Shown piece by piece: positions 546 to 58,600 of a stretch of DNA of 64,000 nt. The notes beneath the pieces were generated by a model. It ran no database searches. It had not been told where the DNA came from and worked only from the letters and a program-made list of their open reading frames with translations. Origin of the DNA: Asterias amurensis (taxonomy: Eukaryota > Echinodermata > Asteroidea > Forcipulatida > Asteriidae); contig NC_092648.1 in assembly GCF_032118995.1 (NCBI RefSeq), forward strand, positions 20,488,450 through 20,552,449. The letters run 5' to 3'. How positions within the stretch are numbered: position 1 is the first letter of the stretch; each line of letters starts with the position of its first letter. The position numbers were made by a program, and so were the translations under genes.

Positions 546-3500
546 ATGGTTCCCGATTCAACGATGGGAAAGACGGCTGTCAAACCTGCTACGGTTAGGC
601 CAGTCAAGACTCGTCTAAAGACAACGAAAGACAAGACAGGTGTGATGGAAAGAGAGACAAAATTTAAGGTAAACCCACAAGTTACAGTCTACTAATCCGC
701 CTAGTGTTCGATGGGACCATGGAGAGGGATAAGTATCGCATGGGTACAATGATAACCCAATGATTGTATTTACAGTTGTCAGGTTTCTACTTCACTTGGT
801 TCCACCATAAAATGCAACTGTTATTGTCACTTGTGGAAATCATGTGGTTTAAAAGAGACATCGTCATCACGTATATTTTAACGAGGTTGGAATTAATCAG
901 TTTAAAAAACAATAGTGTCACGTCATTACTGGTGGTGATTTAAGTCTCTCTCTAACTCTATGCAGATTATAAAACCAGACATTATTTGACCCTTGGGAAA
1001 AACAAGTAGGAACATTTTGATCGAGTAAGGGCTGACCTCTACATAGTCTAATTACTTTCAGATTTTTTGGACAATTTTTCTGATTTTTCCCTTGGGTAAT
1101 ATGTCAGAAATCAGGCTAAAGTATAAGAAGCATACATGTTTATTTGTCTGTTTATTTGTTGTAACCAATGTCCTTCGCTGCTCTGTACAATTGCCAGACA
1201 ATCGCGGGATAACTTTGTTCACGTGGTCGTGCATCATTCCCTCTATACCAAGAACTTCAAATAAAATGCCCCACCCATGTAATGAGGGTGGTATACACAT
1301 GAATTGATAAATTCATGTGATTGATCTTTTAAAACAACACTTATGTTTTTTCTCTCAGGGACGGAAGAGTTTGAAGGATAACTACGAGAAGCCGGTATCG
1401 GGCCGAGACCAATGGTGGAGAGCACACATCAGGGTAAGATATCGACGCTTCGTGAAGTTCCCGCGAAGTCAAACAAAAATGTTCCCGATCAAGTCGGACG
1501 TTTCGCTTTACAAAGCACGAATGTTTTCGGCACATCGCATGTTCCAATAAGTATTTAAAGTAGGCTGCTTTCTAATTCGGTCAGAGGCCTCTCCCTATAT
1601 ACAGTGATTATGACAAGTTAATATTTGAAATGGAAGTGTTCCTTTGAGTCTATATATAGGGCCGGCTATGCCTAATTCTGTCTGACAATTTCAGAAGGGA
1701 TTTACAAAAACAAACATCCCCCAATGCAAACTTACTAAAACTAACTGCGATATACGTAACAGCAGGATTTAAAGTATATTTGACGTAAAATTTTCCCCAT
1801 TTAAAAAAAACTCTGACAGGAAACGCCAATTCCAGGTTCCTATGCGACTCGCAACTTTCTAGCAGACCTCGATGAGCGGCCAGCGACGTATGCCTTCAAG
1901 GGGGAAGGACGCAAGAAAGACGCCGATACCCAACGTAAAGGCACCGTGCTGTTACCTGGTGCCTATGAGGCACATGACATGGTATACGACTTAGAGCAGA
2001 CAAGATATACATATTCCATGAAGAACACTTCTAGAGACGAGAACGAGCTACCTGGAGTTAAAGACAAGGTTGGTATAAATACCAGATAGTTTGGTTCAAG
2101 TTCAGGGCTTATACAAAAGCGTCTGCTGAAGCACGGCAATGGACATATTCCATGTGCGGCCATGTTGATTTTCTCCAATGCAATTTATTGTAACGAAACC
2201 AAGCCTGAAGGAAAAAATAGTCTCATTCCGTTTTGTACAACGAGGGTTAGCACCCATCAATGTTATTGGACATCACTTGTCGGGAGTCAATGTCCCTGTG
2301 TGTTATGCAGTGTTTGCCCACAAAAGACTGACAACTAAAGTTGTTTGTAAAATATGTAAATTCGTGGCAGCAGTGACGATTTTTGGCGAAGCGGCGTTTG
2401 AATGCTAACCATAATTTGCACGTGCAACTTGACTCCCAAAACCATTCGAGCGTCTGACATTGGTGCCATTATTTCAGGTTGACAAAAGTTGGGTAAAGTT
2501 GGAGTGTTCATTGATTTCCCTCACACTTGGACGTGTTTTGGCGACCCATGGCGCGAAGCAAGTTTATTTGACGTAACATTTGTTGACCTAAACAATTTCT
2601 GAGAGTTATGCAAAAACGGGTCGGTAACAAGCCCCCATGAATCATATTCCCTTGCAAAAGTGTTCTAAAAAAATCCAAGAAGTATAAATTAGTATTTGCA
2701 ATTTTACTAAAATTATTGGGTGATTTACATCACCTTTGTAGAACCTATAACGTAAAACCAATGACCAAAGCTCAAACATTATTTCTGGTCGACGGGTCTC
2801 CAAAATGCCCTCCTTCCGTCGCCATTTTGAATCTCCTCCAGGATTTCTACCACGTGCAGTTTTTTTTTAAAGTGATGATCATTTCATTTGTGTGTTCTTT
2901 TATACGCAGGGGTGCAACGTTTGTCCGACGCAATATCCAATGGAAAATTATCTATCATTGGCGTGTGAAAAGCAACCATCGAAGTAAATATGATTTTTTT
3001 TTTCTCATTATATAAACTTATGTTTCGTTACTTCCTGTATCCATACGCATCCTGACACATTGAAAGTCTATCCAGAAATACGCGGGTGATTTCAAATTGT
3101 AAACGCCAATAAATATGTGAAATCTGAAAAAATACCTCTCTCATAACTGTCCTTGTTATTTTATTTGTTTGTAGGCACCCAATGTTTAAATCTACATCGC
3201 AGAGATTCCCCACAATATATTTCCAAGGCGTAAGTATATAAATTATTTCTTCTGAAAGAACACCACTTGATAGTATTTGTTTTGTTCGAGGAAACGTCAA
3301 TTTGTGTCTGTTCTAAAGCTATATCAATGCTTCCTCCGGTTGTAAAAGTTTACCCAACTAAATGTCACCTCTCAGAACCATTTCCCTCCATGTTTTAACA
3401 GACAAAGAACCCACCACCAGACCGTTACCAAGCCTACATCCCAGAAACCATGCATGTTATATCATCCAGCTTTAAATCACGGACACCAAGGTTTTCAACA

Positions 3501-8000: not shown

Positions 8001-9066
8001 TTATGATTCAGTTAGTTTTCCATTTATCAAAAGACTATCAGTTCCTGGTGTTTCCGAAGAGCATCTTATACCATAGTTCTCTTCAAGGTAATCCATGACA
8101 CCAGCAGTGCTAGTAATAACATTGAAGACCCGCCGTTCTGCTCTGGTCAACACCTTCTCCATCATGTTTATAAGATGATGATGAAAATACTGGAACGGTG
8201 TACCCAGAGATACCGATATATCAACCCATTGCTGCACACAATCGATTGGTGTTACAGTGTGACCAGCGTACATTGCTGGATTCTCTAGGATTCCCCTAGC
8301 AGCCATGACACCATCGACACCCGTTTGCTCGCAAACTCTATGAACATCGGTCAAGCTCTTTATATCTCCATTGGCAATCACAGGTATTCCAACACTCTCT
8401 TTGATGAGTTTCACGGCGTCATGGTTTGCCGGTTCGGTTCGATCATGAACGGTTCGGCAATGAACTGCAATCCAAGAGACCCCGGCACTCTCTGCCTTCT
8501 GACACAAGTCCACGGTGTCGCGTAGATTTCGATGGATTCTTATCTTGATTGATGTGGTGAAGTCTTCGCTGCCCGTCCTTGCCCAGGTCTGCCTCACCAT
8601 GTCCCTGACTAGCTCTGGCTGTTTAATGAGATGAGCACCATAACCATCACACGTTGCCCAGCGCTGCGGACAACCACAATTCAGATCGACTCCGTCCGCA
8701 TAAGGCCCGACAACCTCTGCTGCATCAGCCAAGTCCTTCGCATGTTTGGCTGCAAACTGAACAATCAGCGGTCTGTCCTCTCTGTTTGTTGTAAACTCAT
8801 TGTCTCTTGCCTTGGTTGATTTGACAAAGCTATCTGCCATGATCATCGGCGTGAAAGTCAAATCACAATCATATCTCCTAACCAGTGTTCTAAAAGCCAG
8901 TTTGGAGTACCTCACCATCGGGGCGCACATCTTCACTGGTTCCTTCTGCTTAAACAGATCCGTAATGGATCGACTTTGGAAAGTCGAGTCTTCATAAGTT
9001 CCCTTCATGGTGATTCTATGTTTTAAGTTTGAGTACATCAAACAATCCACTGTCCGAAATCTGTTG
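8001..9066 (-). CDS. DUS4L: tRNA-dihydrouridine synthase 4-like (DUS4L)
   Basis: Reduces uridine to dihydrouridine in the D-loop of tRNAs (positions 20a/20b in this family) using FMN and NADPH. The protein matches human DUS4L from memory along its length: MCAPMVRYSKLAFRTLVRRY, TPMIMADSFVKS, PLIVQFAA, GVDLNCGCPQRWA with the catalytic Cys of the CGCP motif, SIKIRIH, IPVIANGDI and MAARGILENPAM, ending with VMDYLEENYGI and a short tail. A good splice acceptor (GATGCCCTACAG) sits at 9067, so this is an exon whose 5' partner lies upstream. In-exon start codons are at 9038 (345 aa) and 9008 (335 aa); the latter best matches the human length of about 317. An upstream exon at 11180-11325 could extend it in frame. 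One oddity is HCRT where the family usually has HGRT. The stop is at 8001-8003. Confidence 0.9.
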
Positions 9067-9179
9067 CTGTAGGGCATCAAAACAAATTGAAAATCTATAT
9101 AAAAATTAGAATGAAATAACAACTCTCTCTCATAAATCTGCAGACTGTATTGACTTGAACTCTGCACATTGTAGCATGG

Positions 9180-10228
9180 CAGACCACATTTACAGTGCTA
9201 CCATGAGTGACACTTGTTCTTTATGATTGATTGGGCAAATCAATAATACTTCAAAAAGTGTAGCATAGAGAAAAGGACTTTCAAATTATTACTCATGTTG
9301 TAAAACCATGTATCAAACCTTGGTCATACAAACAAAACACAGAGGTCAAAGTATAGCCCTGACTGCAGCATGCTGGTACCATGCTACCTCCATGCAGGTA
9401 CATGGTACACTAGAGTGTCAGTCTCTGTTTACAAAAAAATACTACTGATATCTTCAGTAACTAAACTGAAGGAGTACGTAGTGTAAAGCACATGGGATGA
9501 ACATACTTTCAAAGTTTCAGTTTTTGTACATATAGGGGAAACTGTTTTTTTTCTTCATTTTTTTCTCCTTCATATTAGTACAGTGGCGGGGACTGTGACT
9601 TGCGTAGAGCTGCGATCGGCGTATGGAAGAAAGAATGTGCAATCTCAAAATTTGTGTTCACTGGTCAGTGACTTCGGCTCTCCTGCCAACACAGTTTAAT
9701 GTGTACAAATGTACACTGCTCCAATATTACAATTATATCAGCACGTAGTGTAGCCTGTAGGTAATCAACAGAGACCAATGTCATAGTATACTACAGTACC
9801 ACTGCCTGAGCAATTATTGAAGAATACCAATAAAATGATATAGAATTACACTAGACTAGGGTTAGAAACCATACACAATAAAATTTACTTCAGCCATACA
9901 CTACTCTTCTTCAACCCGGGCCCCCTATCTCTGGATATCATTTAATTGTTGTTAAAAAACAATCAAGTAAATTCTTTAAAGAAAAGGATGCCACGTTCTA
10001 TATGCGATAACGTAACCCTCCTCCCGACGGCGACGCCGAAGGCCGTCAGGAGGAGGGTTACGTTATCGCAACTACATTCTATACTGCAGTGCACATAATC
10101 AGACTGTACTTCTAGAAACTATAAGGAACTTTGTTAGGAACGGGGGAGCCTTCTACTAGTTTCTAGAGAAGTAATCAGACTGCACATCTTAGTACATTCA
10201 CTGCACTGCATTTTACTTTTAGGTGTCA
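9180..10228. other. Intergenic or 5' intron of DUS4L
   Basis: No exon was found on either strand. Around 9590-9710 the base composition is GC-richer than the flanks, with a splice-like CCAACACAG, but no frame is convincing. The perfect hairpin at 10003-10070 lies here. Confidence 0.4.
10003..10070. repeat. Near-perfect 68-bp hairpin
   Basis: The left arm starts TGCGATAACGTAACCCTCCT and the right arm is its complement, ending AGGGTTACGTTATCGCA, with a GC-rich loop around GACGCCGAAG. Only about one mismatch is seen in arms of roughly 28 bp, so the sequence is young or under constraint. Confidence 0.75.
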
Positions 10229-10897
10229 GGACACTTCGTACCTTTGCCACTTCGTACCTTTTCAAGGTGCGAAGTGACTTTGGACACTTCGTACCTTGGA
10301 CACTTCGTACCTTCTTACAAGACACTTCGTACCTTCTCACGAGTCACTTCGTACCTTCTCACGAGTCACTTCGTACCTTCTCACGAGACACTTCCTACCT
10401 TCGTACTAATTTGGGATTTCTGCATCGTTTATGATTTTTTTTGTGCTTTATGATCGGATGATTATGAAATAAAAGCAAAACAATCCAACTGTTACTATTT
10501 TGTTGGGACACCAAGGAGCCATTTTGACGATTGCATGATTGTTTGACTTTAAAATATTTGTAAAAAATATTGGCGAAAGATGTTGTCCTTGGCGGTAATT
10601 AACTTATACAAAATATTAGTTTCACATTAAAAATGACATTCACATACTCAAACAAAAATTATAATTCATTAAGTAGCCTATTATTAATTTTTTATCTCAA
10701 CGAACATTAAATTATTAAGGAATACACATTTTAATGGAGGTACGAAGTGACTCGGCTAAAGGTACGAAGTGACTCAGCTGATGGTCACTTCGTACCCTGC
10801 CCACGGTACGCGTACCCCGCCCACGGTACGAAGTGACCAATTTGGTTACGGTACGAAGTGTCCCGAAGGTACGAAGTGGCAAAGGTACGAAGTGTCC
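10229..10897. mobile_element. 669-bp non-autonomous DNA transposon with repeated CACTTCGTACC motif
   Basis: The ends are perfect 32-bp terminal inverted repeats (10229-10260 and 10866-10897), beginning GGACACTTCGTACCTTTGCC. Inside each end the 11-mer CACTTCGTACC recurs: about nine times on the left (10231-10400), mostly in one orientation, and seven or eight times on the right (10740-10897), mostly in the opposite one. The middle is AT-rich with no open frame. Such clustered subterminal motifs are typical transposase-binding sites in hAT and related elements. I see no clear target-site duplication, so the superfamily is not assigned. Confidence 0.8.
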
Positions 10898-11179
10898 GAC
10901 ATCATAATGTTATGATAGAAATCGTTATGATGTAGCTGATTCGGACTACTCTTTTTATGAAAACAATGTTGGTTTTGTTCTGTGCCATAGAAACCTGAAT
11001 CACTCTGACGGGGGTCTGTAGTGTACAAAACTTTTACATGGCAAGGAATTTTCCACTTTATTTTTGTTGTCTAGTTAGCTGTGCTGCTGACGGGCTGCCT
11101 GCCCGATGTGTTGTGTACACAGTAAGTGGTGGTCGTGCAATTAAACTGCCGTAAGAATTATAAAATTATAATTCACTAC

Positions 11180-32074: not shown

Positions 32075-34623
32075 TTAAGATTCTGTAGGAGTTGCATAGC
32101 CTGAATGAAAGCTGTCTTCTGATGAATCTTGAGCCGATAGCTCCGATCTAGCATCGGTGTAGTTGCTCTCACATGAGGTAGCTCTCTTTAGCTGGTCCGA
32201 GCTTGTAACAGCCTCTAACATCAAGGGACTGCTGTTGGACCTGGATTTGGGATGAGAACTCTCGCCATCAACCTCTTGACTTTCCTCGATGGTTGGGATT
32301 GGAGTTTCCTCCGACGAAACTGGAGTTTCCTCCGACGGGACTAGAGTTTCGTCCAATGAGACTAGAGTTTCCTCAGACAGGAGGAGAGTTTCCTCTGGCG
32401 AGGGTGGAGTTTCCTCCGACGGGACTAGAGTTTCCTCCAAAGAGACAAGAGTTTCGTCCAATGAGACTAGAGTTTCCTCAGACAGGAGGAGAGTTTCCTC
32501 TGACGAGAGTGGAGTTTCCTCCGACGGGAGTAAAGTTTCCTCTGACAGTGACTTGTTCTCCTCTGCTTTGCTGTGCTTTTCTGCATCAATCTCTTTCTTA
32601 GGGTCGGCGCAGGTTCTGCGTACAGGCTTAGAGACGGCCTTTTCAAGCTCTTGAAAGCGTTCTTTGAGTGATCGAAAGAGGATGGGCTCCTTACTCTCTG
32701 CTGTTTCATTGTTAGAGGAGGAGTTCGTGGAGGATGTTTCAGTTGAATCAAGGTGGAGGTTTACCCTGGGAACATGGACAGGCGAGGTATTTGTGCTGCT
32801 CTGTGCACTGCTAGCATAGCTACTCATACAATCAGGCTCTTCTGATGCGCTACAGTAAGACGCCGTATCAGAATGGTAGAGCTCCACGTAGTTTCCTTCG
32901 CTCTTATGGTATCTCCTCTGGATTGGTCTTGATACCCATTCCTGTAGTTCCTGTCTCCTCTCCCGGAGTGACTTCATTGAGGTATCGACCTGTTGATTAG
33001 ACTGTTTGTGGAACTCTGCATTCTGCCTGATGGATTGTAGCCGCTCCTGTATCCCCATCACTGTTGGAGTCACCGCTTTGGATTCCTTTTTGAGGGATTT
33101 GGGCTTCTCAAATCTCCTCACAACATCACGTACTGAACGTCTGTTGCGAGCACTACGACTGAATGTTGAGGTCGGTGTGTCTTGGGTCTTTTCCTCCTCT
33201 GATGATGATCCTGTTGCTGTCACTGGGACGGCATGAAAGACGGAATCTGAGATATACCTCGCCCTTCTAGATGGTGCCTGCCATTTTTCATTCTCCGTCA
33301 TCGCTCTCTGGAAAGTTTCAAATCTACTGGTGACTTTTGTTACCCTTTTGCTTCTCACTACAACATCCACACCCTTATCGTCCTTTGCAGAGGAAACATC
33401 TCCAAAAGCAGAATCAGTCAGCTCCAAGCATGAGTCACTACTTGACTGTCTTGTCACAATCAATTTTGGACTTTCCTTGGCCTTTCGGCTAAACTCACGA
33501 GCAAGCTTGTTGACTGTTTTAGTACGTGGTTTAACTTTAGGTTGAACAACTATCTTTTGTTTTGGTTCTTCCATTGGCGGAGGCTCTATGATGGTTCTCT
33601 CCTCCATTGACTCAGTTCCAGCTGAAATAGTATTTGCTGTACTTTCTGTTCCATCCTTTGACGATTCGCTTTCGTCCTCATCTTTATTTTCAGAGAGATC
33701 AAGTTGAGAATACTTTTCTCCCAACAATTTGAAGGCATTGTTGACAGACTCCAAAAGGTTCTCATTTGAAGAGAAAGTAGAGGATTCCTCCGACACTGCT
33801 TGAGGTGATTCCGGTGTATGAGGATGCTCAGTGTAGGTTGGGATACAACAGACAGACCTGCTTCTGTCCTCACATGCGCTGGTCTCTAGCATATTAGGAT
33901 CTGAGCGAGATCTACTGTACATCTCACTGACTGCTGCCAACATCTGTCTGTCCTCACTGTTGCAGCGGGAGAGGGGCATTCTCTGATGTGGCGTATGCAT
34001 TGCGGCGTCAGCACTAAAAGGCCGATTGCCATACGATACACTCCTGCTCCTCATGTGAGGGCCAAGAGACATAGGAATCCACACATCCCCGTTCTTACGA
34101 GCACCCAGAGGTCGGTAGCCTTTGATGTTTGAATGACGAAGCTTGAAAGGTTCCGATGGTGAAAACTTTTTAATGTATGAAGGCAATGTCTCTAAGTCTA
34201 CAGCGTCTTCATGTCCAACAGCAGCATTGTCAACTGTTTCTGGCAATGTCTCTAAGGCTTCCAACTCATCTGGGCTGTCTGCGCCTTCCACAACTTCCAC
34301 GATGGCATTGTCCTCATCCTCTTCACTATCATCCAATCCAAGACGCTTCCGAACGGGATCAATCTTCTTAGATAAGTCCTCAGAGGTCTTATTGCCCCGA
34401 TCAGGACGTCTGCTAGAGCCACTACCGTCCTTATCACCCTCAACTGCAGCATGTTCGGACAGCGTCATGCTGCCGATTCCAGAGTCTCTGTTTGACTCTC
34501 TCTTCCGGGTTAAGTTGCTTCTCTCCATCATGGCTCTGTCTCTTTCTTCATCACTGTGTGTGCTGGACACGTTGCCGTCAAACTCGATGCTGTTACGGCT
34601 TAGTCTTTGGCTAAGGTTGTTGG
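32075..34623 (-). other. Large last exon of the PLEKHG gene, disordered C-terminal tail
   Basis: 2549 nt encoding 848 residues after the split codon. The tail is Ser/Glu/Lys-rich and looks disordered. It has short basic and RS-rich clusters (MRSRSVSYG, RSRSDPNM), four similar blocks resembling VRRFEKPKSL and LRERRQELQEWVSRPI/LKERFQELEKAVSKPV, and an acidic heptad array. The end reads SEDSFHSGYATPTES. A block repeated twice, with the pattern L(R/K)ER(R/F)QELE/Q followed by VS(R/K)P(I/V)(R)R, may be a short helical binding motif. The acceptor at 34624 follows a clear pyrimidine-rich tract. Confidence 0.85.
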
Positions 34624-37600
34624 CTGTTGGGGTCCAAGAAAAGGAAAAGAAACTGTCAGAAACAACTTTACTTTTTGTTTGTTTGTGTATGCTTGAAGGT
34701 TCAAAATATACACTTCTAAATATTATTATTATTATTATTGATTGGTTTATTTTAGAAATAAAAGCTTCACGGCCTTAAGGAGGCTGAATTGAGTTTTACT
34801 TAAACAAAATTACGAAAAGTTAAAATTAAAAACATTAAAAATATGCAAACAGTAGAAATTTTAAAATCTTTGCTAAAACACGGAAACACGTCTCAAGATC
34901 TTACCAAGTGGTTGATCTTGTTTATCCGGGCTCCTTGAGTCTGGTGTTCTGGTCGAGTCAGAGCAAGCTGATAAGCTACCTCTTCTTGCTGGGTTACTCT
35001 CATCCTGTGTATTGCCACACAAAAACAACAACAACATTGTTTTGATTAATACCGGTACACAAATAAAGGGAGTCATCAAAATAGATTGTGTGTCCTAAAA
35101 GGAGTTATAAGAACCAGGCATGGAATTTTATCATTGGGAGGGCTAGGCCATTTTCATTTGGCACAGGTCCTTTCTCTTGAAAGATCGTCAAAGGTTTATG
35201 GAAAACTTTTGAAGGGGCACCAAGGCCAAGACCAGGGCACCAGAAAACATGCCTCTAGATAATTCCAGGCCTGAAGAACCCTATCGCAAAGTGATTGTGT
35301 GTGAGGTTTTGTTGTAGCACCATTTGTAAAAATCTCTTTTGAGTAGTGTTGATTCGAAAAAGAAAAAGGTGGTTGATAACTCAACGTTTCGATCAGTATG
35401 CTCCGATCGTAATCGTGAGAAATGTTGAAGTGGACTATTTTCAAAAAACACTACTCTATACGTAAATGTTGGATGAGACAGGGAAAAAGCCACTTACCAC
35501 AAGTGATGGTTTTCTTGAAGTTGACTCTATTGATTCATTATCGGATTCCTCATCAGATACAGTATCTCGGTAAAACTCACTGGATCTTCTTCCGGCCTAT
35601 AAGAGAAACAGATATTTATTGCTTAGGTTATGAGGTGAGGTTTGTCTCTGTTTATGTACAATATGCGTTACTTGGCATAAATGAAATTTATATCTCAACT
35701 AGAACTACATTTATTACAGAGGCTGTCCTATGTATAGTTTGGTGAATTAAATAAACTTATCGGGAAAACTACATCATTAATTGGCACATACAAATGTGTT
35801 TATCGGCATAACAACTGTAATTATCTGCGAAAACTATACAAAAACAACTATGGGCAAAACTTTACAAAAAAAATGCAAACACAAATGAACAATGGAATCA
35901 GCAAAATAGTTACATAAATTTGTAATATTCAACAGTTATTCAGCAAAACTGATACATAAATTGGCAGAATAAAAAATATATGTATCAGCAAAGCAATTAC
36001 AATCTAAATACAAATATAGCAAAATATAGCAATCATCAACAGACCATCAATTGTAAAGGAGCAAAATTACAAAAGTTGAACTTTGAATGTTACTCAAAAT
36101 TATAGAAAAACACAGTAAAATAAATAAACAATTGGAACAAGTGCCCCTGCTGTCTCTTTCACTGCTGATCTCCTTTAAAAATACTTTCTCATCTTTCACT
36201 GCTATAAACACAAAATAATTTTCAGCAAAATATTTATCATAAAGAGAAATAACTCACCCATTTTGACAGCTCTGGCTTTTTCATACCTGTGAGAAAATAA
36301 TATCAGAAAAAGAAAACGATGATTATATGACAACTTTAACTAAACCAAAGACAGCAATTATGCACAATGCTTTAAAAAAAAAAGAAGCAAACTGTTGAGC
36401 ATTTTCAAGCAATTCCTTGCAAACAGAGTGTGGAACACAAGCTAGGTTGGCATTCTTTTTTCCCCATGATGAGTGGGAGCATTTGCTTTTGCAAATTTTG
36501 CTTAACGTAGGTATCAAACAAATAAAAACAATTCAAGCTCAACTTTTCCAAGTTTTATTCCTGAGGTACCTGATAACCTGGGCCCAATTTCATAAAGCTG
36601 TTTAGCAGAAAATACTGCTTAACAAATTTCTTTGGTAAGCACAGAATGAGAGGGGCACCAGTTGCAACAATGTAAACTTGATGGAATGTTGGCTGGTAAC
36701 CTGCTAGGCAAGATGTGCTTAGCTGGTTTTTGTGCTTTTGATATTGGGCCCTGGAAGTATATACTGACTGTGTGCTGGGGCAAATAAAGCTTTATGCAAA
36801 ACTCAAGGCACCCACAGCAATTGCCGTGGTGCCCTGTGCTTTTGCTGTGGTGCCCCTTGCAAAGTTCCAATGCAAATTCATATCTTCATAAGAGAAGTGC
36901 CCCTTCACCAGGGGAAAATTCTTGTGCCCCTTCACAAGCAGAGATTGAGGCTTGTATAAGCAATTGTCTTCTGCTTTGGAGCTAGCTACCAGTTTTATTA
37001 TTTCACAACGACGCCAACCATAACCAAAGTAAAAGGTGGTTCTTGAAAGCAGATGTGTAATGCAATAATGCAAATCCATTATGAAAGCACACATCAACCA
37101 TCAAATCTTCTTGATAGTTTGTGAAATAAACTTTTGATTGTAAAAGTTTTTCTGCAGTAAACAGTTCTGAATCTGTGCTTGGAACCAACATACAACTGTA
37201 AATTTGTTGATTCCTCAGTAAGTTTCTTAATAAACAGTCTGCACCAAAACAAAACGTCTTTATCTTAAATTTACTAAAAATGTTCTCTTAATATTTGAAC
37301 ATACATGTAGATAAAAATCAAATTTGTGAATCATTCCTGTCAATCAAAACAGAGTTTAAAAAAAGTTACTGAATGCGAATATGCAAACAAACCAAAATGA
37401 AAGCTCAAAGAGGAAATGATTTAAGGCAATGATTTATGAAATAAATTTTATGAAATGAAATCACATGCATGAAATGACAGCATTCATACACATATGCAAG
37501 GAAGCATGCCGCAGGGGATGTATGTGAAGTTCATGGGTCTAACGAAACATTTCATACATAACAAAACCACAGTCAACACTTGGTCAGGGTTATCCCTTAT

Positions 37601-40600
37601 TTTGTCAGTGACTAGACACAGCAGGACCAGTTAGTGTGCTGTTTCACTAGTCCGCCAGCTACTCCGCTCATCCACATTTCACAATGAATAGGAATGCATT
37701 TCAACAACGAACTATAACCAAATTGGGACTTTTGGGTTGCTAGGTGGCAGCAGACTTACCAGGTGAATCCATTGTTCTCAGTGCCATGCTCAGAACTATG
37801 CTTACAATGAAAATTTACCTGGCATGTCTGCTGCCATCTAGTGTTCCAAAGGTGGAGTGAATTTTAGAGCGAATTTTGAATGGTCCTTGGGTGTTCAAAC
37901 AGGCATTTGGCAAGGTAGATGTTAGTTTCCAAACGCCAGGAGTCGATCGCTACTCGAAAGGATCCGATGTAATCGGTAGTCGTCAAACGGGGCAGCAATA
38001 CATAGACTCGCTACCATTCCTTGAGCTTTTTCTCCCTAAGATTTGTTTGTGTATTTTTGTATGGTAGCTACACCGATGTTTACGAGTTTCGCTCTTAAGT
38101 TCAGACATTTGTTTTATTTATTTTTATTCACAACCATTAATATACAAAGGGGTCATGTATTGCTGATTTTTAAAGTATATTTCCAGATTTTTTAAATAAA
38201 CAACAAAGCAATGTGTAGCCACAGAATACAAACTCTTCATCAACTAAAAGATGATTTGTTAAAAACTGTTTATCAATACGTTATCTTTCAGATTAAGCCA
38301 ATCAAAGACTGCCATTCCCTATACAAAGGATTCCTGTAGCATTACTGATTTTATCGTATTTTTATAAAACTCCATTACATTTATTTCAGATTTAAAAAAA
38401 TTAAAGACCACGAGTCTGCTGTGCGAACAGTTTACGATTTCATCAACGCCACGGGTCGATTTGTAAAACGGTTTATCAACATGTTATCATTTAAACGAAG
38501 TCAATCCAAGACTGCCATTACCTATACAAAGCATTCATGTAGCATTAGTGATTTTATCATAAATTTATAAAGCTCCGTTATATTTATTTCAGATTTTTGA
38601 AAATTACACACCACGAGTCCCTTTGCAGCATACTTTGTATGTGTACTACACTGCTGTGCGCACAGTTTAAGATTTCATCAACGCCACGGGTCGATTTGTA
38701 AAACAGTTTATCAACACGTTATCATTCAAACGAAGCCAATCAAAGACAGTCAGTACCTAAACAAAGCATTCATGTAGCACTGCTGATTTTATCATAATTT
38801 AACAAAGCTCCATTATATTTATTTCAGATTTTTGAAAATTAAAGACCACGAGTCCCTTTGCAGCATACTGTGCGTGTGTACAACACTGCTGTGTGTACAG
38901 TTTACAATTTCATCAACGCCACGGGTCGATTTGTAAAACAGTTTATCATTACGTTATCATTTAAACGGAGCCAATCAAAGACTGCCATTTCCTATACAAA
39001 GCATTCATGTAGCAAAACTGATTTTATTATAAATTTATAAAGCTCCGTTATATTTATTTCAAATTTTTGAAAATTACACACCACGAGTCCCTTTGCAGCA
39101 TACTTTGTATGTGTACTACACTGCTGTGCGCACAGTTTAAGATTTCATCAACGCCATGGGTCGATTTGTAAAACGGTTTATCAATGCGGTATCATTCAAA
39201 TGAAGCCAATCAAAGACTGTCATTCCCTACAAAAAGCATTCATTTAGCATTACTGATTTTATCATAAATTTATAAAGCTCCGTTATATTTATTTCAGATT
39301 TTTGAAAATTACACACCACGAGTCCCTTTGCAGCATACTTTGTATGTGTACTACACTGCTGTGCGCACAGTTTAAGATTTCATCAACGCCACGGGTCGAT
39401 TTGTAAAACGGTTTATCAATACGATATCATTCAAATTAGACAAATCAAAGACTGTCATTACCTAAACAAAGCATTCATGTAGCATTACTGATTTTATCAT
39501 ATTTTTATAATGCTCCATTATATTTATTGATGATTTTTGAAAATTACACACCACGAGTTCATTTGCAGCATACTGTGCGTGTGTACTGCACTGCTGTGCG
39601 TACATTTTACAATTTCATCAACGCCACGGGTCGATTTGTAAAACAGTTTATCAACACGTTATCATTCAAATTAGACCAATCAAAGACTGTCATTACCTAA
39701 ACAAAGCATTCATGTAGCATTACTGATTTTATCATAATTTTATAAAGCTCCGTTATATTTATTTCAGATTTTTGAAAATTACACACCACGAGTTCATTTG
39801 CAGCATACTGTGCACATGTACTACACTGCTGTGCGTACATTTTACAATTTCATCAACGCCACGGGTCGATTTGTAAAACAATTGATCAACACGTTATCAT
39901 TCAAATTAGACCAATCAAAGACGGTCATTACCTAAACAAAGCATTCATGTAGCATTACTGATTTTATCATAATTTTATAAAGCTCCATTATATTTATTTC
40001 AGTTCTTTTTTAAATTAAAGACCACGAGTCCCTTTGCAGCACACTGTGCGTGTGTACAACACCGCTATCGCACAGTTTAAGATTTCATCAACGCCACGGG
40101 TCGATTTGTAAAACGGTTTATCAATACGATAACAAAGGATTTATTTAGTATTACTGATTTTATCCCATTTGTATAATGCTCCATTCTGTTTATTTCTGAT
40201 TTTTGAATATTGTATCATAAGAAAGTGGCATCTAGAGAAGGAAGGAACAAACAAAAATCGGTGAGAAATAAAAATGTGTGGCTCTTCCATACAATATCCT
40301 CTTTTTATATCAAGTTCTTCATTTAGTTAAAATTTAAATGGCCTGTCTTAGCTCCGTAAAGTTAGTAAATGACCAAAATTAGGTTCAGAAAGTTTTGTTG
40401 GTGATAGTATTAAAACAATTGAATTAAAATTAAGGGGGGAATGAAGTAATGTTTTCACATACGACACAGAAACACTTTGGTTTGATAAAGCATAGAGGAA
40501 GGCTGTCCTTCATCTATGATGTAAGTGAGTAAGCCAGCACAGACCGGCTATCAAGGACTGCAAGGCACTCAATTGGACGAAACAGTTAAATAATTTCCCA

Positions 40601-43600
40601 ATTCTTTTGTGCATGGTGATTTGCCCATTTGTACAGTTTGTGCACAGTTCTCCAGTTTCGACCAATAGAGGGCGCTGTTTTCCAATAATTATTTTCTATA
40701 ATTAAAACAACTCGTACTTTGCAAGTTTTACCATTGACGACTTTCACATGTTATTCGGGACTACCATAAGTACATGTGGGGGAAAAATCAGGTAGTTGCT
40801 GATTTCTCTGTAAAAAATAAATAATATATCTAGAGCGATAGTATGAATGTCACTAGTGAAGACACTCAATTTTGTCAAATAAGCAGACGATTTATTTTTG
40901 TTTGTCGTGATGGCCTAAAATTGACTGAAAAAAATTGTAGGCAACTGTTCCGTACTTTCTTTTAAATCTGATTGTCTTTATTATATTTTCATTACCAGGG
41001 TGTGATTAATTTTCTTTTTTTCTCTTTTATTCCAATTAATAGATTTTATAACTAAGATAAAATTCATGAGAAAATTAACTTAGATAAAAACCACATGAAA
41101 CACCCCAGATTGTGGGCTTTCAAAACCAAAGAAAATTAGTGTAAGAATGCCTCGCATTCGGATGCTTTCGCGCTCGCAAGCTTCACGCTTTGCACATTAT
41201 TTTTATTTATTTTTTTATTAGTTTATTTTTGATGTCAACAACCTATCACACCCCTGCCCATACGGTGTTAATTTTTTTTCTCTTTTTTCTTTTTTAAATT
41301 TATTTATTAATTCTTTTTGTACTTTATGCCTCCGAAGAAGGTCCTGTTTGGATCGAAAGCTAAGGCCATTTATACCTTACTCATTATATATTTTATTTGT
41401 TTATTTTATTTATTTATTTATTTATTTATTAATAGATTTTCTTGGTCAATTTCGGCAAATTAGCAGCCAATTTAACCATCAACAACCTGTTCTAATTCGC
41501 GCGAAATCGAAAGCTACTGAAAGGGGTAATTTCGTTTTTATGATTAGTCAAAAACTGTAATGCTGCGGGGACAGCGTCATTCAATTTAACAATTCAACAA
41601 AGCAGCATTGAAATTCGCAGACGCTTCTTCAAGCTTGTGTGTCTCGAAAAAGAATGACGATACGCTAAATTGATGTGCTAAAGGAATTTTAATAACTCGA
41701 CTCAATTCGAAATTGAAGGGCCGAATTCTAAATTTGAAACGCAGTCACAATTGGAGAGGCAAAACAGCTTTAATTCCAGCGCATGAAAGTTAATTCCACT
41801 GCTCATTTGCCAAATTTGACCGAGGAAACCTACATTTATTCATGGGGGGGGGCATGTATTGGAAACTGACCAAGACCTGATTTTGTATTGTTTGACAGAA
41901 ATCTTGGCAGATGTTCAACTGCTAAGGTGTGAAGAGTGTTTGCCTTTACATTATAAAGGAAACAACTTTTAAACCAAGCGTGTCTTCAGTTTAGATATAA
42001 GTGAAGTTGTTTGTTTCATTACTTGAAATTGAATACATGAAAACCATTGCTCCCGGTCCATCACCAGCAATCTTTTTCTGCATTCGTGTAAGTTGTAGGA
42101 CGACATAATCGAAGGACCATCAAAGGGCGGGTCCTTTTGATAAAACTGTTTTACAAATCGACCCGTGGCGTCGTAAACTGTAAATTGTACACACAGCAGT
42201 GTTATACACACGCACAGTATGCTGCAAAGGGACTCGTGGTCTGTAATTTTAAAAAATCTGAAATAAATATAACGGATCTTTATAAAAATATGATAAAATC
42301 AGTAATGCTACATGAATGCTTTGTTTAGGTAATGACAGTCTTGGATTGGCTTCGTTTGATCGATAACGTATTGATAAACCGTTTTACAAATCGACCCGTG
42401 GCGTTGATGAAATTGTAAACTGTACGCACAGCAGCGGTGTAAACAGGCAACTAGGCTGCAAAGGGACTCGTGGTGTGTACTTTTCCAAAATCTGAAATAA
42501 ATAGAACGGAACTTTATAAAATTATGATAAAATCAGTAATGTTACATGAATGCTTTGTTTAGGTAATGACAGTCTATGAATGGTCTAATTTGAATGATAA
42601 CGTATTGATAAACCGTTTTACAAATCGACCCGTGGCGTTGATGAAATCGTTGACTGTACGCACAGCAGTGATGTACACCATAAAGTATGCTGCAAAGGGA
42701 CGCGTGGTTTGTAATTTTCAAAAATCTGAAATAAATATAACGGAGCTTTATAAAATTATGATAAAATCAGTAATGCTACATGAATGCTTTGTTTAGGTAA
42801 TGACAGTCTTTGATTGGTCTAAGTTGAATGATAACGTACTGATAAACCGTTTTACAAATCGACCCGTGGCGTTGATGAAATCGTTGATTGTACGCACAGC
42901 AGTGATGTACACCATAAAGTATGCTGCAAAGGGACGCGTGGAATGGCAGTCTTTGATTGGTTTAATTTGAATGATACCATATAGATACACAGTTTTACAA
43001 ATCGACCCGTGGCGTTGATGAAATTGTAAACTGTACGCACAGCAGTGTAGTACACACGCACAGTATGCTGCAAATGGACTCGTGGAATGTAATTTTCATA
43101 AATCTGAAACAAATATAATGGATAATTTTAAAATTATGATAAAATCAGTAATGCTACATGAATGCTTTGTTTAGGTAATGACAGTCTTTGATTGGTCTAA
43201 TTTGAATTATACCGTATTGATAAACAGATTTACATATCGACCCGTGGCGTTGATGAAATCTTAAACTGTACGCACAGCGGTGTAATACACGCGCACAGTA
43301 TGCTGCAAAGGGACTCGTGGTGTGTAATTTTCAGAAATCTGAAATAAATATAACGGAGCTTTATAAAATAATAATTAAATCAGTAAGGCTACATGAATGC
43401 TTTGTTTAGGTAATGACAGTCTTTGATTGGTCTAATTTGAATGATAACCTATTGATAAACCGTTTTACAAATCGACCCGTGGCGTTGATGAAATTGTAAA
43501 CTGTACGCAACAGCAGCGATGTACACAGATAAATTAGGCTGCAAAGGGACTCGCGGTGTGTACTTTTCAAAAATCTGAAATAAATATAACGGAGCTTTAT

Positions 43601-46600
43601 AAAATTATGATAAAATCAGTAGTGCTACGTGAATGCTTTGTTTAGGTAATTACAGTCTTTGATTCCTCTAATTTGAATGATAACGTGTTGATAAACTGTT
43701 TTACAAATCGACCCGTGGCGTTGATGAAATCTTAAACTGTGCGAACAGCAGTGTAATACACGCGCACAGTATTCTACGAAGGGACTCGCGGTGTGTACTT
43801 TTAAAAAATCTGAAATAAATATAACGGAGCTTTATAAAATTATGATAAAATCAGTAATGCTACATGAATCCTTTGTTTAGGGAATGGCAGTCTTTGATTG
43901 GTTTAATTTGATTGATACCATATAGATAAACCGTTTTACAAATCGACCCGTGGCGTTGATGAAATTGTAAACTGTGCGCACAGCAGTGTAGTACACACGC
44001 ACAGTATGCTGCAAATGGACTCGTGGAATGTAATTTTCATAAATCTGAAACAAATATAATGGAGAATTTTAAAATTATGATAAAATCAGTAATGCTACAT
44101 GAATGCTTTTTTTAGGTAATGACAGTCTTTGATTGGTCTAATTTGAATTATACCGTATTGATAAACCGATTTACTTATCGACCCGTGGCGTTGATGACAT
44201 CTTAAACTGTGCGCACAGCAGTGTAATACACGCGCACAGTATGCTGCAAAGGGACTCGTGGTGTGTAATTTTCAGAAATCTGAAATAAATATAACGGAGC
44301 TTTATAAAATAATAATAAAATCAGTAATGCTACATGAATGCTTTGTTTAGGTAATGACTGTCTTTGATTGGTCTAATTTGAATGATAACGTATTGATAAA
44401 CCGTTTTACAAATCGACCCGTGGCGTTGATGAAATCTTAAACTGTGCGCACAGCGGTGAACGTTGTTTACACACGCACAGTAGCCTATGCTGCAAAGGGA
44501 CTCGCGTGGTCTTTAATTTTTAAAAATCTCAAATAAATACAATGGAGCTTTATCAAACTATGATAAAATGAATTCTTAAACTGTACGCACGGCAAAGTGA
44601 CTTGCCACAGTATATGAAGCAATTTAGGGGGACTCTCGGTCTTAAATATTAAAATCAGCAGAACTAGATGAATCTCTTGTGTACTGAAAGGGAATGGACC
44701 AGTCTTTTGATTGGCCTTAACTTAATTGATAACGTACGTTTGTGTTGAGAAGTTTTGCAACGTGGAGAGTGATACGTATGTACCCCTGCAGTGGGTCCCA
44801 TCCACTCGCAACACGAGAAATGCTGCACGGACTTGGTCAAGTCTAAAAGCGTTCTTAACAGTGTGGTTATTTCGGATCCTTTTCACGTGTAACGATCGAC
44901 TCCTGGCGTTTGGAAACTAACATCTACCATTTGGCAAGTTGACCCCACTTAAGAAGGGAGAATGCTATTGATGCCTGTAACCAAGACTACAACTTGACAC
45001 CTCACACTTGAGACTCAGATAGTGATGCCTTAGGACCAAGAATGAGAATTTTGAGGTCTGAGACGGAGACCTCAAGGTCTGCAACATAAACTCAAGACCT
45101 TGAAGACTGTACCTCAGAGGCCTGCAATACAGACTTAGACTTCATGGTCTGACACAGAGATCTTTAGAACTGAGACTGAAATTCAATGAATGGACAAACC
45201 ACATAAAACAAACATGCTCAGTGCGTCAAACTTCACACAGTGCAGCATCCTAATAGTACACCAATCCCATCTGAATGCTTTTGAACTGGAAATTATCTTA
45301 ACTGCGCTCCAGGAAAACTGCTTGTTTGCACACTATTTAAAAAGCATGGTAGTTTCTTTGTATAATATAAAGCTTGGTTTAATTTCAAGTGATTGGTTTG
45401 CATTTGCAGTATTCAAGCAGTTATGCTGCAACTGGGTAATTAAAAGATTTGTGCATGAGTAATACTTTGATCATTTTTTGATGATCAGCCTGGTTTGGGG
45501 TTGAGGGGAGGAGGGGGAGGGGTTAAGGATGCTTTGCATGGTGTCTAAAAGGAAAATGGCAGTAGCACCAAACAATTACCTCTTTTATGTGGGAAAGTGG
45601 CTAGGGAGAAATTCTCACAGAGCTGGAGAACACCAGACATACCGGTTCGCATTAATGTGACTTTACCGTGCGGAGAATTTTGATTGACAGAAGAACAGGT
45701 ACTGTGCTTGTACCTAGGTATATTTTGCAGAATTGTAGAGGATAGAACTTTCAGCGACCTTCCTTTTTTTTTTGTATTTGCTCTTTAAATTAGTCCTGGC
45801 ATGAAGACTTTTTGTGTGTATTTACACCAAAGATAATTCTATGGTGCTGCACTGAATATCTGGGAGAAGGGGTGGGGGGAGGGAGTGTAATTCTGTGACT
45901 AGCGAGGTAGGAATCTTGTAAGGATTGGTGTACCATCTTAATGTGATCACCCACTCACCTTTAACAATCATGCTTTCCACAGCAGCTGTAAAGTGTAATA
46001 AGCAAGGATGGGAGAGAAACCATGGGTTAATATGGCAAAGCTTTAAAATAGAAACCCCCCTGGGTGTCTATCACCATGTCTCTCACCATGTCCGCCACCA
46101 TGTATGGATGCATGTACATGGGAGTATGGATATGAGGGTTTGTCATAGTAATGTATATGTTCACATGTGTGTTTGTAACTTGTCAAAATTGTGATCTTAA
46201 GTTTAAATGTTTTTAACAAAACTGAAATTACATATTTGAAGCAACAAGTGTTTGTGATATAAGAAAATGTCTAACAGAAAGAATTGACTTCATCCATCTC
46301 AATCAAATACCTACTTAAAATTCAAGATTCCAAATAACTTTTTTGAAAACACTTCTTTCCTAATAAAATTGTTAACAAATAGTTTTGTTTGAAGTATGTG
46401 AATATTGGAAGCGTTGCCAAAGCTACAGAAAATGCAGGATCCTGTCTTGATTTAACAAAAGGGCAAGAATACTAGTATGTGCATTTTTTGCATTGTCAAA
46501 TGCTGTACCTTATATTGATTCAAAGAGAGTAAGTACATAAGAGGCAGAAGTGTAGTCAACATTACTAATGTTGCAACTATCTTGATTCAGAAAAGGAAAG

Positions 46601-49600: not shown

Positions 49601-52600
49601 GTGCCATGAGACAATGGTGTAAGGGTAAAACCCAACTTATAAATAGCTGTATATTTGAAACAATGGAATTGTAGACTCTCTGAATGTTTTTTCCTGTTCT
49701 GAGGTAGCCTTGCTCAAGGCAGTCGAATTATTCACTCCGAAAAAAGACCGCCGCTGTATAAAAACCCACCCGTATTCACTGTGCGTAACATCACTATCCG
49801 CATGCGTCAGCCGTTAGGCCGACAGCCTTGTAGGGTCTGTGTTGAAGCCACTGACCTCATTACTATAATAAGCGAAGAGTTCCTACGGTCAGCTCATTAC
49901 CATAATGCCCGCGAAAGACGAGACATGTTTACATCACACACGAGCATGATAGGGTCCAAAGTTCGTGATAAGGGAAGTGCGTGATTGGACGTCAAAATGA
50001 ATAATTCATTTGCCTCACATCCTGTGTTGTCTGATAGGTCTGACGAAAGATATACATATTCATGGGCTGCATACTAGCATATCCGAGAGCCCCCCCAATT
50101 TTTTCCACTAGTGGAAATTTTTCAATACAACACATTAAACCCGGAAGTTACAGACCCGACAAGGCTGTCGGCCTGACGGCCTCCGCATGCGGTTGGTGGT
50201 ACGAGTGCGGATGACTTGTGTGCACAGTAGTCGTACGATGTGACAGTGTGTATACGGGTGGGTCATGCGGTGTGATCGCACGCACAGGGTATACGGGTGG
50301 GTTTACAGCGGCGTCTTTTCGGAGCGAATAATGCGACTGCCTTGAGCAAGGCTAGCTCTGAGGTTATCTAATCTCGACAGAAACTGAACTAATTTTCCAG
50401 GGGGAATAAACAAGCGTCTTACATTAAGGAAACAGGTCAGGAGGATCGAGTACATGGTAATATAGGCAAACACGTAAATCAATCACTAGTCTGTGCTTTT
50501 AATGTGAAGACGGCTCCATAAGAATAGTCTGGCTCCTGTCTCCCAGGAGGACCTATTGCTTCCTGTCTACAAATCACTCTCAATGTGCGTCATTCCTATG
50601 TCAAATCTATAATGATATACAGCGATCCTTTGCCATAAAGCGTCTCCCCGCCCCGGACACATTCATGTTTCCCCTTTCAGTTCCTCTGGAACGATAGCCC
50701 TCACCCCCATGCGCACGATCAATGAGGGCGCTCTTTAATGATATTGGCAACCTGTTAACACCAATGATGAGCTTATCATAAGAAATATCCTTGCGGTGAC
50801 ACCGTAGATAAATCTCTCTTGAGAGATGGTGGTTCTGAGGAGAACTGGAGGACTCAATGTTTCAGACAGTATACTCTGCCTGTCGCCAGAAAACTTATCC
50901 CTGGCTGGTCCAATCAGAAGTACCACTATCGCCCAGTTACCATGGTAATTTTTTCTCACAATGAACACCACATGGTTTCAATCCAAGCCATACACATACA
51001 TAGCTTCCAAGTACTTCAAAAAAAATCAAGAGGAAAATTGTTTGGGATTTGGTCCACGGACCTTCTGCAGACATAAGCAGGGCCCAATTTCAAAGAGCTG
51101 CTTAAGCAGAAAATATTGCTCAACACATTTCTGCTAAGCATAAATGAGCAGGATACCAGTCACAAATTGTACATGCGACATGGTAGTTTGGCTGCAAGGA
51201 CAGTTTGCACAACAAATGTTGAGAACGAGGGCTGGGGACTGAGGTATGGGGGAAAGGATGAAAAAGCCATATGGGGTGAAAATGAAGGGCGATGAGAGAG
51301 AGAGAGGGGGGGGGGGGTACAGGAACAGGGCCCCCCCCCCCACAGGAAAGATTCTCTTGGCTAGACTTACCAGGATGGTGTACTGTATACTAGGATTGTT
51401 GAATGGTATCACATTGAAGCCCAGCGGCTCCTTCTGTAAGCTCTCAATCAACATCAGGTTATTACACTGTAGGGGTTGGGAGGCAAACAACACAATCAAG
51501 ATACACTTGTTGTAATGGAACACTCACACTTGAACCCTGTCAGAATTTCATGACAACCCCCCCCCCCCTAGCGCTTTGGTAAAATCCTTCAAAAATAAAA
51601 CACTACAGCCACACATACATGCTGAAAATTAATTGTGTTTACATGTTAAACATAAACACTGCATTTTTTTTTGGGTTTGAAGTTGGTGTCAAAATTTGAA
51701 GAGTGAGATCCACATTATTTATGATGCTCTGAGCAGACATTTTGTTATGTCTAGATTTATTATTTTCGGGGGAGGGGGGGCCAATGTTTTGAGGCACCGA
51801 TTTCATCAAGGAGAGGTCGCTTACGGGTATGTGGGTCTTGACGCTGATCAATGTGTCTTCTCTTTTCTTGCCGATCAGTAACACCTTCTCAAATAAGTAG
51901 AGGTAGCGTTCTGCCCGAGCACCTTGCATCCGGAATATATCCTTCGGGATTAAAAGAAAAGTTAAATACATATTACAAAGTGTATAAATAATATAACAGA
52001 AATCATGGAGTGATGAACATAAAACATTTCAGGTTGGCTGTGTTACTGCCATGCAGGGCTTGAAGTTTACACTGAACCACAGGCCCGAGGCCAGTGATTT
52101 TAGCGATGGACCAGTAAACTCATGAATGAACAAGTCCGCGGTCTCGTGTGTTTCAATTGAGTAGGCCTAATACCACCTCACCATGCATCTTCATTCATTT
52201 GGATTTTTTGTAAATGTTTTCTTTGAGCTATTCAGACCATGTACAGACCCTACGGTCTTATGGAATTTTACCCTCAATTCAAGCCCCGTCATGGGAACAT
52301 ACTGTAGTTTAGGGCGATAAAAACAGAATAAAAATCTTCTGGTATTGTTTTTCTAGCTTTTTTATATATTTAAAAACCCCACCTATTTGCTTAACAAAGA
52401 AATAATTATATTTTACCAAAAGTTTTCACAAAGATAAATAAATAAGAACTAGTCCTAGGAGTTATTAAACTTAAAGCTAGTCTTATTAGGACGAGTTTCT
52501 AACTTGAGATAAGACTAGTTTTACCTCAATCCACCCCAGTAATGCTAACGTGATTCCCGATTAAAATGAATACAAAGAGCCGTCTTAAAACATTCTGTCA

Positions 52601-55600: not shown

Positions 55601-58600
55601 GTGAATTGTGAATATTTGTTTTCCTTATCTCTAAGAGGCAGTGTATACTTTTGGTAATTGTCAAAGACCAGTATCCTCATTTGCTGTATCCCAACATGAG
55701 CATAAAATAACAAATCTGTGAAAATTTGGGCTCAATTGGTCATCAAAGTTGCAAGAAAATAATAATGTATCTGCCTTCTGAAAGCAAACAATATTGTGCT
55801 TTCAGAAGGCAGATACATTCAAAATTTTGTGGGTGAAAAATAACCTCTTCTAGAAAACTGAACGACTTTTAAGGAGCAACTTAAAAGTTGTTATGGTCAT
55901 TATAGAGTAACAACAAGGAGTATACACTGTCTTCAAGAAGGGAGATTCGCTTGACGGGGATCTGTCATCCTTCGATACATGGAAATGGATAATAGTGATT
56001 GAACATTGGCTTGGCAGCGTCAACATTCTTCATTCTATCTATGAAAGAAACCCAAAGAAAACCTCAGGAATGTACCAGCAGCTCTGAAACGGTTTCCATG
56101 CTCAAATCCTTGAAGCAGCTCTTTCAGAAACAGCCAAATGAACGATTGGAAATGACCGACGAGTGTTTGTCAAGGCACGAGCAAATCTAATAACCAGGGC
56201 CAAGGAATTTTAAGCCAATCAAATACTTCCCCTTATTTTTGTGAAATCAATTGACGATCACATACCTCAAAAATTTGGGGGGAGGGACCCTGAAATATCT
56301 AAGTGAAAAATCACCATTTTCGCTAGAATGAATATACAAGAAATGCTTAAAGTTTTGAAAAAAACCTAGCCTGAAATGGAGTTTAATGAATGAATTTATA
56401 AATATTTTTGAGGAAAAAAACTAATCTCGGAAAAAGATTTGATACATTTATGTCCTGATTCCGTCTTTCTACAAAGCTCTACTGACGAGAACACTTCTTC
56501 AACATCAAATTTGATCCGCGCAATCTTTCAGGTAGTAATTTGATTTTTGGGGTTGATCAAAGAATTGACTAGAGTGGGATTCGAACCAACAACCTCCGGA
56601 TTAAAGTGTCGGCGCTCTACCAACTGAGCTATCTAGCCCTATATTGGTGGTGTCCCTAATAATTTGATAAGGTAATAATTTGATAATTTGCCACCGAAGG
56701 TGTTTCATTAATGTTGAACTTTCCCTTTAAATGAACACCACCAAGCAAGCACACCTCATCTGCACAACTCATTCAAACCAATCTGAACACATCCTGGCCG
56801 CAATAATCTGTTGCCATGATTTTTTTAACTATGTGATAATGTTGATTTGGACTGCATTGCACTTTGGTATTTACAAATCCAGCTGTTTCACGTCCACGGC
56901 GTCTGGGTCGCACGTGGGTATATGGCACTGTGATTCACTGCTCAAACTAATTGTGACATAAGGGGGGGCTCTATATCCAAGACGCCAAAGCGCCTCAGGT
57001 CCCGGTCAGGTTTGGTCACATGAAGGCAGGACTCCAAACTGTGTTGATTTTATACCCAATTACGTGTCATATGACATGTATGTGGAACAGTTTTAGGTCC
57101 GTCCGTTAGACAAAGACTCTGAAGCACAAGCTTGGTTTCTTTAGGTTGAAAAAAAAAGAACCAAAGTCAACCACGACCTGGTGCTAGGCAAATCCACCAA
57201 GATATTTGAGACTCTTGTTCTATACCTCCATGGTTAGACTTGGACGGAACGATCAAGAACACTAAGCAGACTTATTAGACATGAGATGAAGCACGTGTAC
57301 ATTAACCATCAGATGGAAGAACATTTGATTAAGGATAGTTCATGCCAGATGTCATACACCTGGAAAGAATTTATCCCTTTTTCTTCTCTACAGATTACGG
57401 TCTTCTAGCCATGCCCATGATATATGCGGTTTGTCTGACGAATTCTAAAAATATCACTTAATTGCTACCCTATATTTGTGTTGTACCTTTTTCGTGTTTG
57501 TTCACTTGTTTTACTCTTTTCTTACTAACAATCACCATAGCCCAATTCATACTTCACATAAAATGCAAAATAGAGAATTTCTTTGTGTCACAATGGGAAA
57601 ACATCGCATACCTAATTGTTTGCATCACATAATTCGCTTTACTCTGCTTTCACGTATCGTATGAACCAGGCTTCACCAACAGTAACATTTTCAAATAAGT
57701 AGGATTTAAAACTTTGCACATGGTGGAATTACGATCTAGTAATGTTTGCGGTAACACGATGTAAAGAAAATCTCTAATTGAGTTGAGGTGGTTCTGGTTT
57801 CTTTTCGAATAGTTTATTCTTTCTCTAGTTATATCATTACCTCCCAGCCAATCAGCTGGCTCTGTATCTCCTGTACGTGGACAGACGCTTCATGCTTGCG
57901 TTTCATCTCGTTGATGTAGCGAGCAATGTCCGTCATACAATCTAGCGTATCTCCTATGGTGTCGTAACCATCGTCGTCTTTATTAAAATGTTTGTACATG
58001 TCCTGCAAGAAGCAACAAAATGATCAGACGGTTAATTAATTTGGCATACAACAATGGCATCTGATAGACCCCTTGCATAACGCGAAACGCTACAGGGAAG
58101 CTGAGGTCACGCACAAAGAACGGCCATAGTCCAATCTTTTGCCTTCTTTGACTTCAGTGAGGGCGCTTTTTGGCCCTAGTGAGGGCACTTTTTGGCCCCA
58201 GTGAGGGCGCTTATTGAGCATGTGACATCACATGCAAGAGATTTATTGCCAGAATGACAAAATGAAAAAAAAATTGTTCTCTTCTTCGGGGTAATGGAAA
58301 AGAAAATGATACATAGATAGAGCGGTAAATTCAAATGGAAGCTCATATAGCTTTAGGTATAACCAAATATTACAAAGTGAGAACCCACACACAAAAATAA
58401 TGAAGTAGTATTAAAGACACTGGACACTATTGGTAATTGTCAAAGACCAGTCTTCTCACTTGCTGTATCTCAACATAAGCATAAAATAACAAACCTGTGA
58501 AAATTTGAGCTCAATCGGTCATCGAAGTTGAAAGATAATAGTGAAAGAAAAAACACCCTTGTCACACGAAAGTTGTGTGCTTTCAGATGCTTGATTTCGA

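Follow-up and report, generated by a model that had tools for sequence, protein, structure and literature searches.

Facing arrays of a 235-bp repeat, located in a 64,000-nucleotide stretch of the starfish Asterias amurensis genome (hereafter the window, i.e. the whole stretch of DNA analyzed), make up the inner part of a single complete DNA transposon, which occupies window positions 37914-44928 and is 7,015 bp long. We consider it very probable that this is a non-autonomous, foldback-type cut-and-paste element. Its borders at 37914 and 44928 are sharp and common to 18 other copies, as found by comparing 18 genomic copies together with their flanks. The same 36 bp, GGTAGATGTTAGTTTCCAAACGCCAGGAGTCGATCG, are present at the two ends in inverted orientation, and ATTTGGCAA occurs on either side of the window copy as a perfect 9-bp target site duplication. 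An earlier note, made from the letters of the window, had given the extent as 38248-44770; the element as a whole is larger, with its own end sequences outside of the arrays. The same note had suggested a foldback-type transposon with arms of long tandem units, and this is borne out by the common outer borders and the mostly 9-bp target duplications. Among echinoderms, the TU elements of sea urchin are foldback elements that also carry tandem repeats in their arms, with a short unit (approximately 15 bp). The features of the window copy are as follows:

37905-37913, unstranded: left copy of the target site duplication, ATTTGGCAA (from the sequence)
37914-37949, plus strand: left 36-bp terminal inverted repeat
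37950-38235, plus strand: left outer domain, without array units (98-99.7% identity in the other 18 copies read)
38236-40212, plus strand: left arm, 9 units in plus direction, 7 full and 2 partial (Tandem Repeats Finder (TRF) and profile search)
40213-42132, unstranded: spacer, 1.92 kb
42133-44570, minus strand: right arm, 12 units in minus direction, 9 full and 3 partial
44571-44892, minus strand: right outer domain, including one degenerate unit at 44646-44759
44893-44928, minus strand: right 36-bp terminal inverted repeat
44929-44937, unstranded: right copy of the target site duplication, ATTTGGCAA (from the sequence)

The existence of the facing arrays was confirmed by self-comparison, TRF and a profile search, and the structure recurs genome-wide, so it is not a product of chance. 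Self-comparison gave direct repeats of period 235 in each arm and an inverted match between the arms (88% over 1,592 bp), and TRF reported 235 bp x 7.3 at 38416-40128, 234 bp x 3.4 at 42137-42941 and 235 bp x 6.9 at 42942-44569. By profile search, 9 plus units (38236-40212) face 13 minus units (9 full and 4 partial or degenerate; 42133-44759). The counts of eight and about eleven given previously become 9 and 13 with partial and degenerate units included, while the estimate of approximately 1.9 kb for the spacer stands. The spacing is not exactly 235 bp throughout, as had been claimed: most unit starts are 234-236 bp apart, the first plus unit is partial and the last degenerate, and the minus arm has a short step at approximately 42940.

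A coding spacer was rejected, since its longest stop-to-stop frame is 112 amino acids and neither of the two frames tested had a Pfam match. The idea of the unit as an internal dimer was likewise rejected (best shift identity 80/232), and no RNA family reached its gathering score in window 37000-46000.

Copies in the genome and dynamics of the arrays

The A. amurensis assembly searched comprises 491.5 Mb in 23 contigs, and was built from PacBio HiFi and Hi-C data, with 22 chromosomes, according to excerpts of its description (PMC10625585). With the window interval as query, many near-complete copies were found among the candidates scored, which were part of the total. The 36-bp end, allowing up to 3 mismatches, had 57 matches in the genome versus 0 for a reversed control, and a shorter 22-bp end pattern had 66 sites versus 3, the weakest of which may be due to chance. 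The earlier note had proposed a genome search for recurrent facing pairs with the same outer borders and a target duplication, and such pairs were found: 46 of the 57 end matches form 23 facing pairs, 5.7-10.7 kb apart (counted from the list of matches), with the other 11 unpaired. Nineteen copies were read, i.e. the window copy and 18 others, representing 18 of the 23 end pairs plus the locus L028 (one copy, L017, in part). Both ends were intact and could be read in 17 copies: the target duplication is perfect over 9 bp in 14 of them, matches at 8/9 positions in L012, and is absent in two.

In every one of the 19 copies, facing arrays with 4 to 25 units per arm flank a version of the same 1.9-kb spacer. 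A collapsed assembly behind the arrays is unlikely, given the HiFi and Hi-C data and the 19 copies resolved with differing unit numbers. Inversion of the spacer by exchange between the arms was not seen, as its orientation relative to the left end is the same in all 18 other copies. Exact copies of the 20-base core of the unit are found at 454 places in the genome, and 319 of them lie within the 19 copies read. The first 100 of the 454 places were compared by eye, and all lie at loci matching the end of the element, with no free-standing satellite array among them.

Pairwise divergence of the spacer over the 19 copies has a mean of only 1.25% (range 0 to 2.6%; L021 spacer in part), which indicates a recent spread. 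L011 and L012, situated on different chromosomes (C19 and C9, respectively), show just 2 substitutions over 7.1 kb. Between L014 and L015 there are 5 substitutions, a 708-bp gap corresponding to approximately three units, and a 12-bp gap. The sister of the window copy is L009, near-identical outside the right arm, which differs and includes a 144-bp gap. Units within one copy are approximately 10% different, versus 0.8% on average to the nearest unit in another copy, and for 359 of 365 full units the nearest unit of another copy is found in the same arm, which argues that the arrays travel as a whole. A block of five units is present several times over in L018, and in L028, units recur at distances of 9 and 10 units, in both cases with at most 1% difference. 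Together with the gap between L014 and L015, this shows that array length changes by multi-unit blocks. Near-identical units (at most 1% different) within an arm were seen in 8/19 right arms and 4/19 left arms, a small contrast, and a mosaic check of five copies gave no clean switch point.

Two further observations concern end sites and their surroundings. On C16 (15490714-15522259), two plus and two minus diverged end sites, each with 2 mismatches out of 22, face each other 31.5 kb apart; they may belong to a relative of exceptional length or to a number of separate fragments. A palindromic repeat of approximately 117 bp lies beside the right end of L028, and the same repeat flanks L022 on the left.

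Shared motif, transposase and alternative explanations

In a set of 52 non-redundant units, variation is lowest (0.6%) in the 16-bp window AACGCCACGGGTCGAT, which ranks first of 217 windows for conservation; the unit as a whole varies about tenfold more (7.2%). Column permutations were as low as the motif in 38/5000 cases for 16-bp windows, and in 4/5000 and 8/5000 cases for 20-bp and 25-bp windows, respectively, values that serve as a guide and not as probabilities since the units are interrelated. The AACGCCACGGGTCGAT window is also where the unit resembles the end repeat most closely (14/16), and it is oriented like the end of its own side. A diverged 5.1-kb element on C2 has an end reading AACGCCGCGAGTCGAT, and 700 bases read from its interior contain two unit motifs, AACGCCGCGGGTCGAT (15/16) and AACGCCGCGTGTTGGT (13/16); diverged units of either orientation are present there, and a long frame is not. 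Given the conserved motif and the analogy with the Drosophila element Galileo, we put it at about an even chance that the arms are made of transposase-binding sites. Less likely than not, though a real possibility, is that they are selected binding-site arrays, in which units added by blocks would raise the pull of a non-autonomous element on a scarce transposase; in the boldest version, array length would be adaptive and tuned through duplication of blocks.

The explanation we favor would run as follows. A transposase made elsewhere, most likely that of a Mutator-like element (MULE), would bind the 36-bp ends; each 235-bp unit would probably be bound as well, at the sequence that nearly repeats the end motif. 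The enzyme would then excise the element and reinsert it with a 9-bp target duplication, while the arms would lengthen and shorten by blocks of whole units, presumably via unequal exchange or slipped repair. Supply in trans by a MULE fits the length of the target duplication (9 bp) as well as the foldback build of the arms and the identity of the two ends. On account of the duplication length and the build, the mobilizing transposase is probably of the MULE (Mutator) superfamily; 9 bp falls within the range of MULE target duplications, 8-11 bp in the sections of PMC6446971 consulted.

MULE genes are present in the genome: PF10551 (MULE) has 12 matches and the MULE protein of the locus L034 has 75, in addition to six matches of PF12762 (Merlin-type; IS1595/IS1016-type transposases). 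None of the 12 PF10551 loci matches the element by BLASTN (3.3 kb per locus). A Pfam scan of five MULE loci gave a weak PHD finger match, below the cut-off, in L030 and L034, and the PHD finger is listed as a trait of Rehavkus in those same sections (PMC6446971). Minisatellites of 16-18 bp with a CTTCGTACC core were found at 7 of the 12 MULE loci.

Several observations weigh against the favored explanation or parts of it. L009 and L018 are without a target duplication (3/9 positions matching in each), and L028, in which precisely the outermost 8 bp are missing on each side, likewise shows no target duplication. The match between end and unit, taken by itself, is only moderately unusual, being reached by 11/3000 single-base shuffles for the 36-bp repeat, and by 42/3000 (left end) and 50/3000 (right end) when the first 60 bp are used. 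In the L041 subfamily, the end has GTGACTCG in place of GTCGATCG with its four unit motifs unchanged, which counts against strict co-evolution of end and unit. Lastly, a comparison of 66 end sites with 45 places from these searches, in which adjacent hits at one locus were counted once, found no PF10551, PF12762 or L034-protein match between end pairs. The place nearest to an end, 13.6 kb away and outside the pair, is a weak PHD-only match, and no recognizable transposase gene was seen in the copies read (18 of the 23 end pairs plus L028). Regarding L009 and L018, no reciprocal partner was found with the one junction pattern searched for each. L041 (C7:7871400-7877399) belongs to the subfamily with the GTGACTCG variant, of which there are four ends in the genome, and had no right end within the 6 kb read; a short-repeat stretch is located at approximately 690-1060 of the locus, and a repeat of approximately 1 kb with many copies elsewhere is found in its interior.

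The strongest alternative, a real possibility that we place a little below even, is that the arrays are a passenger satellite without a role in transposition, expanding merely as any tandem repeat tends to, with the motif kept by e.g. gene conversion or a host factor. Expansion by blocks is satellite-like, the match between end and unit is short (16 bp) and not extreme, and the end and units of the L041 subfamily have drifted apart in the motif. On the other hand, a single 16-bp stretch is both the most conserved window of the unit and the part closest to the end repeat, and arrays have been retained in both arms of every copy read.

A transposase outside of MULE that makes 8-9-bp duplications, e.g. 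Merlin or hAT, appears rather unlikely. It would agree with the lack of a MULE gene between the ends of the element and with the six Merlin-type matches, but these too lie outside end pairs. Target duplications of hAT elements are 8 bp, versus 9/9 positions in 14 of the 17 copies here; hAT genes were not included in the search. Neither is the duplication length of the P superfamily (7-8 bp; 7 bp in Galileo) the 9 bp found in those 14 copies, and a P-type transposase was not searched for. Foldback elements are mostly Mutator according to PMC4079207.

The two alternatives named in the earlier note, a satellite array inverted after duplication and an array carried by a Helitron, can be dismissed as having next to no likelihood, as the satellite-like unit and growth by blocks are set against the common borders, 36-bp terminal inverted repeats and 9-bp duplications that unrelated loci share, and against the first 100 of the 454 core motifs all lying at loci that match the end of the element. 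Terminal inverted repeats and target duplications are both absent from Helitrons.

Minisatellites and tandem repeats were also noted elsewhere in connection with MULEs. At window 10226-10900, short facing arrays built on a CACTTCGTACC core, for which TRF gave units of 16-22 bp, share this core with the minisatellites of the 7 MULE loci. No clear target duplication could be seen by eye; the palindromic structure is probably related to the minisatellite-bearing MULEs as a non-autonomous element. In L037, 112-bp tandem units (1-325) are situated upstream of a MULE gene (851-amino acid open frame with a weak Ulp1-protease match), and in L039 a 239-bp spaced repeat (2894-3286) is found upstream of a MULE gene. 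L037 and L039 are 99.6% identical over 2,885 bp.

Genomic setting, related elements and significance

On the minus strand of the window, an 899-amino acid open frame without a Pfam match (32078-34774) and a PH-domain match (51642-52028; 25.6 bits, just below the Pfam cut-off of 27.7) lie on either side of the element, and it is plausible that it resides in an intron between them; the RhoGEF setting given in the earlier note is tentative. The few frames that were scanned gave no DH domain. Within the 899-amino acid frame, 21-bp and 105-bp tandem repeats (32300-32546) encode a repeated SEET-type motif. Other features of the window are a Dihydrouridine synthase (Dus) open frame of 398 amino acids on the minus strand (8004-9197) and a 22-bp tandem repeat in 3.2 copies (58147-58217).

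We found no prior description of the starfish family in the parts of the open-access literature searched. Closest to it in build is Tetris of Drosophila virilis, as far as the excerpts of its description go (PMC4079207). Tetris is likewise non-autonomous, with tandem units of approximately 220 bp inside an outer flanking domain, a noncoding middle, a variable unit number and 8-10-bp target duplications, and a 37-bp stretch (approximately 80%) is common to its outer domain and unit, comparable to the motif of the starfish end and unit. No transposase source was found for Tetris in that account, and the partner of the starfish element is similarly a matter of inference. Tetris differs in its host, a fly, in the unit itself, and in having terminal repeats of up to 1,735 bp and three complete copies, compared to arms of up to 25 units and 23 facing pairs in starfish, and its units also occur in satellite-like arrays of up to 66 copies, in contrast to the first 100 of the 454 core-motif places (PMC4079207). 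Relative to the Tetris elements described there, the starfish family has longer arms and is a cleaner case for a motif common to end and unit.

Three other systems share some aspects, again judged from parts of the respective papers. The long arms of Galileo (P superfamily) include internal tandem repeats, in which additional sites for transposase binding were shown by electrophoretic mobility shift assay, but its transposase is of the P superfamily with a THAP domain (PMC3688188). Tm1 of Meloidogyne has foldback-like composite arms and mostly 9-bp duplications and is assigned to Mutator, whereas its internal repeat is approximately 14 bp and some members encode a transposase (PMC3169594). The Rehavkus (9-bp) and Phantom (8-10-bp) MULEs are similar in duplication length, with minisatellites located beside one end or following the gene, but carry a transposase gene, none of which was found in the starfish element (PMC6446971).

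The element belongs to a well-preserved and recently active foldback family in starfish, of a kind that is known but poorly understood. Among foldback elements with long tandem-repeat arms, binding sites in the arms have been shown in part for Galileo, as reported in the portion consulted (PMC3688188). The starfish family offers 23 facing pairs in one chromosome-level assembly, recent copies, arms of 4-25 units and a motif, common to ends and units, that stands out by conservation alone. With natural copies that vary in unit number and a motif thus singled out, a link between unit number and mobility would be testable. The family is also a clear case of satellite-like arrays that grow by blocks within a mobile element.

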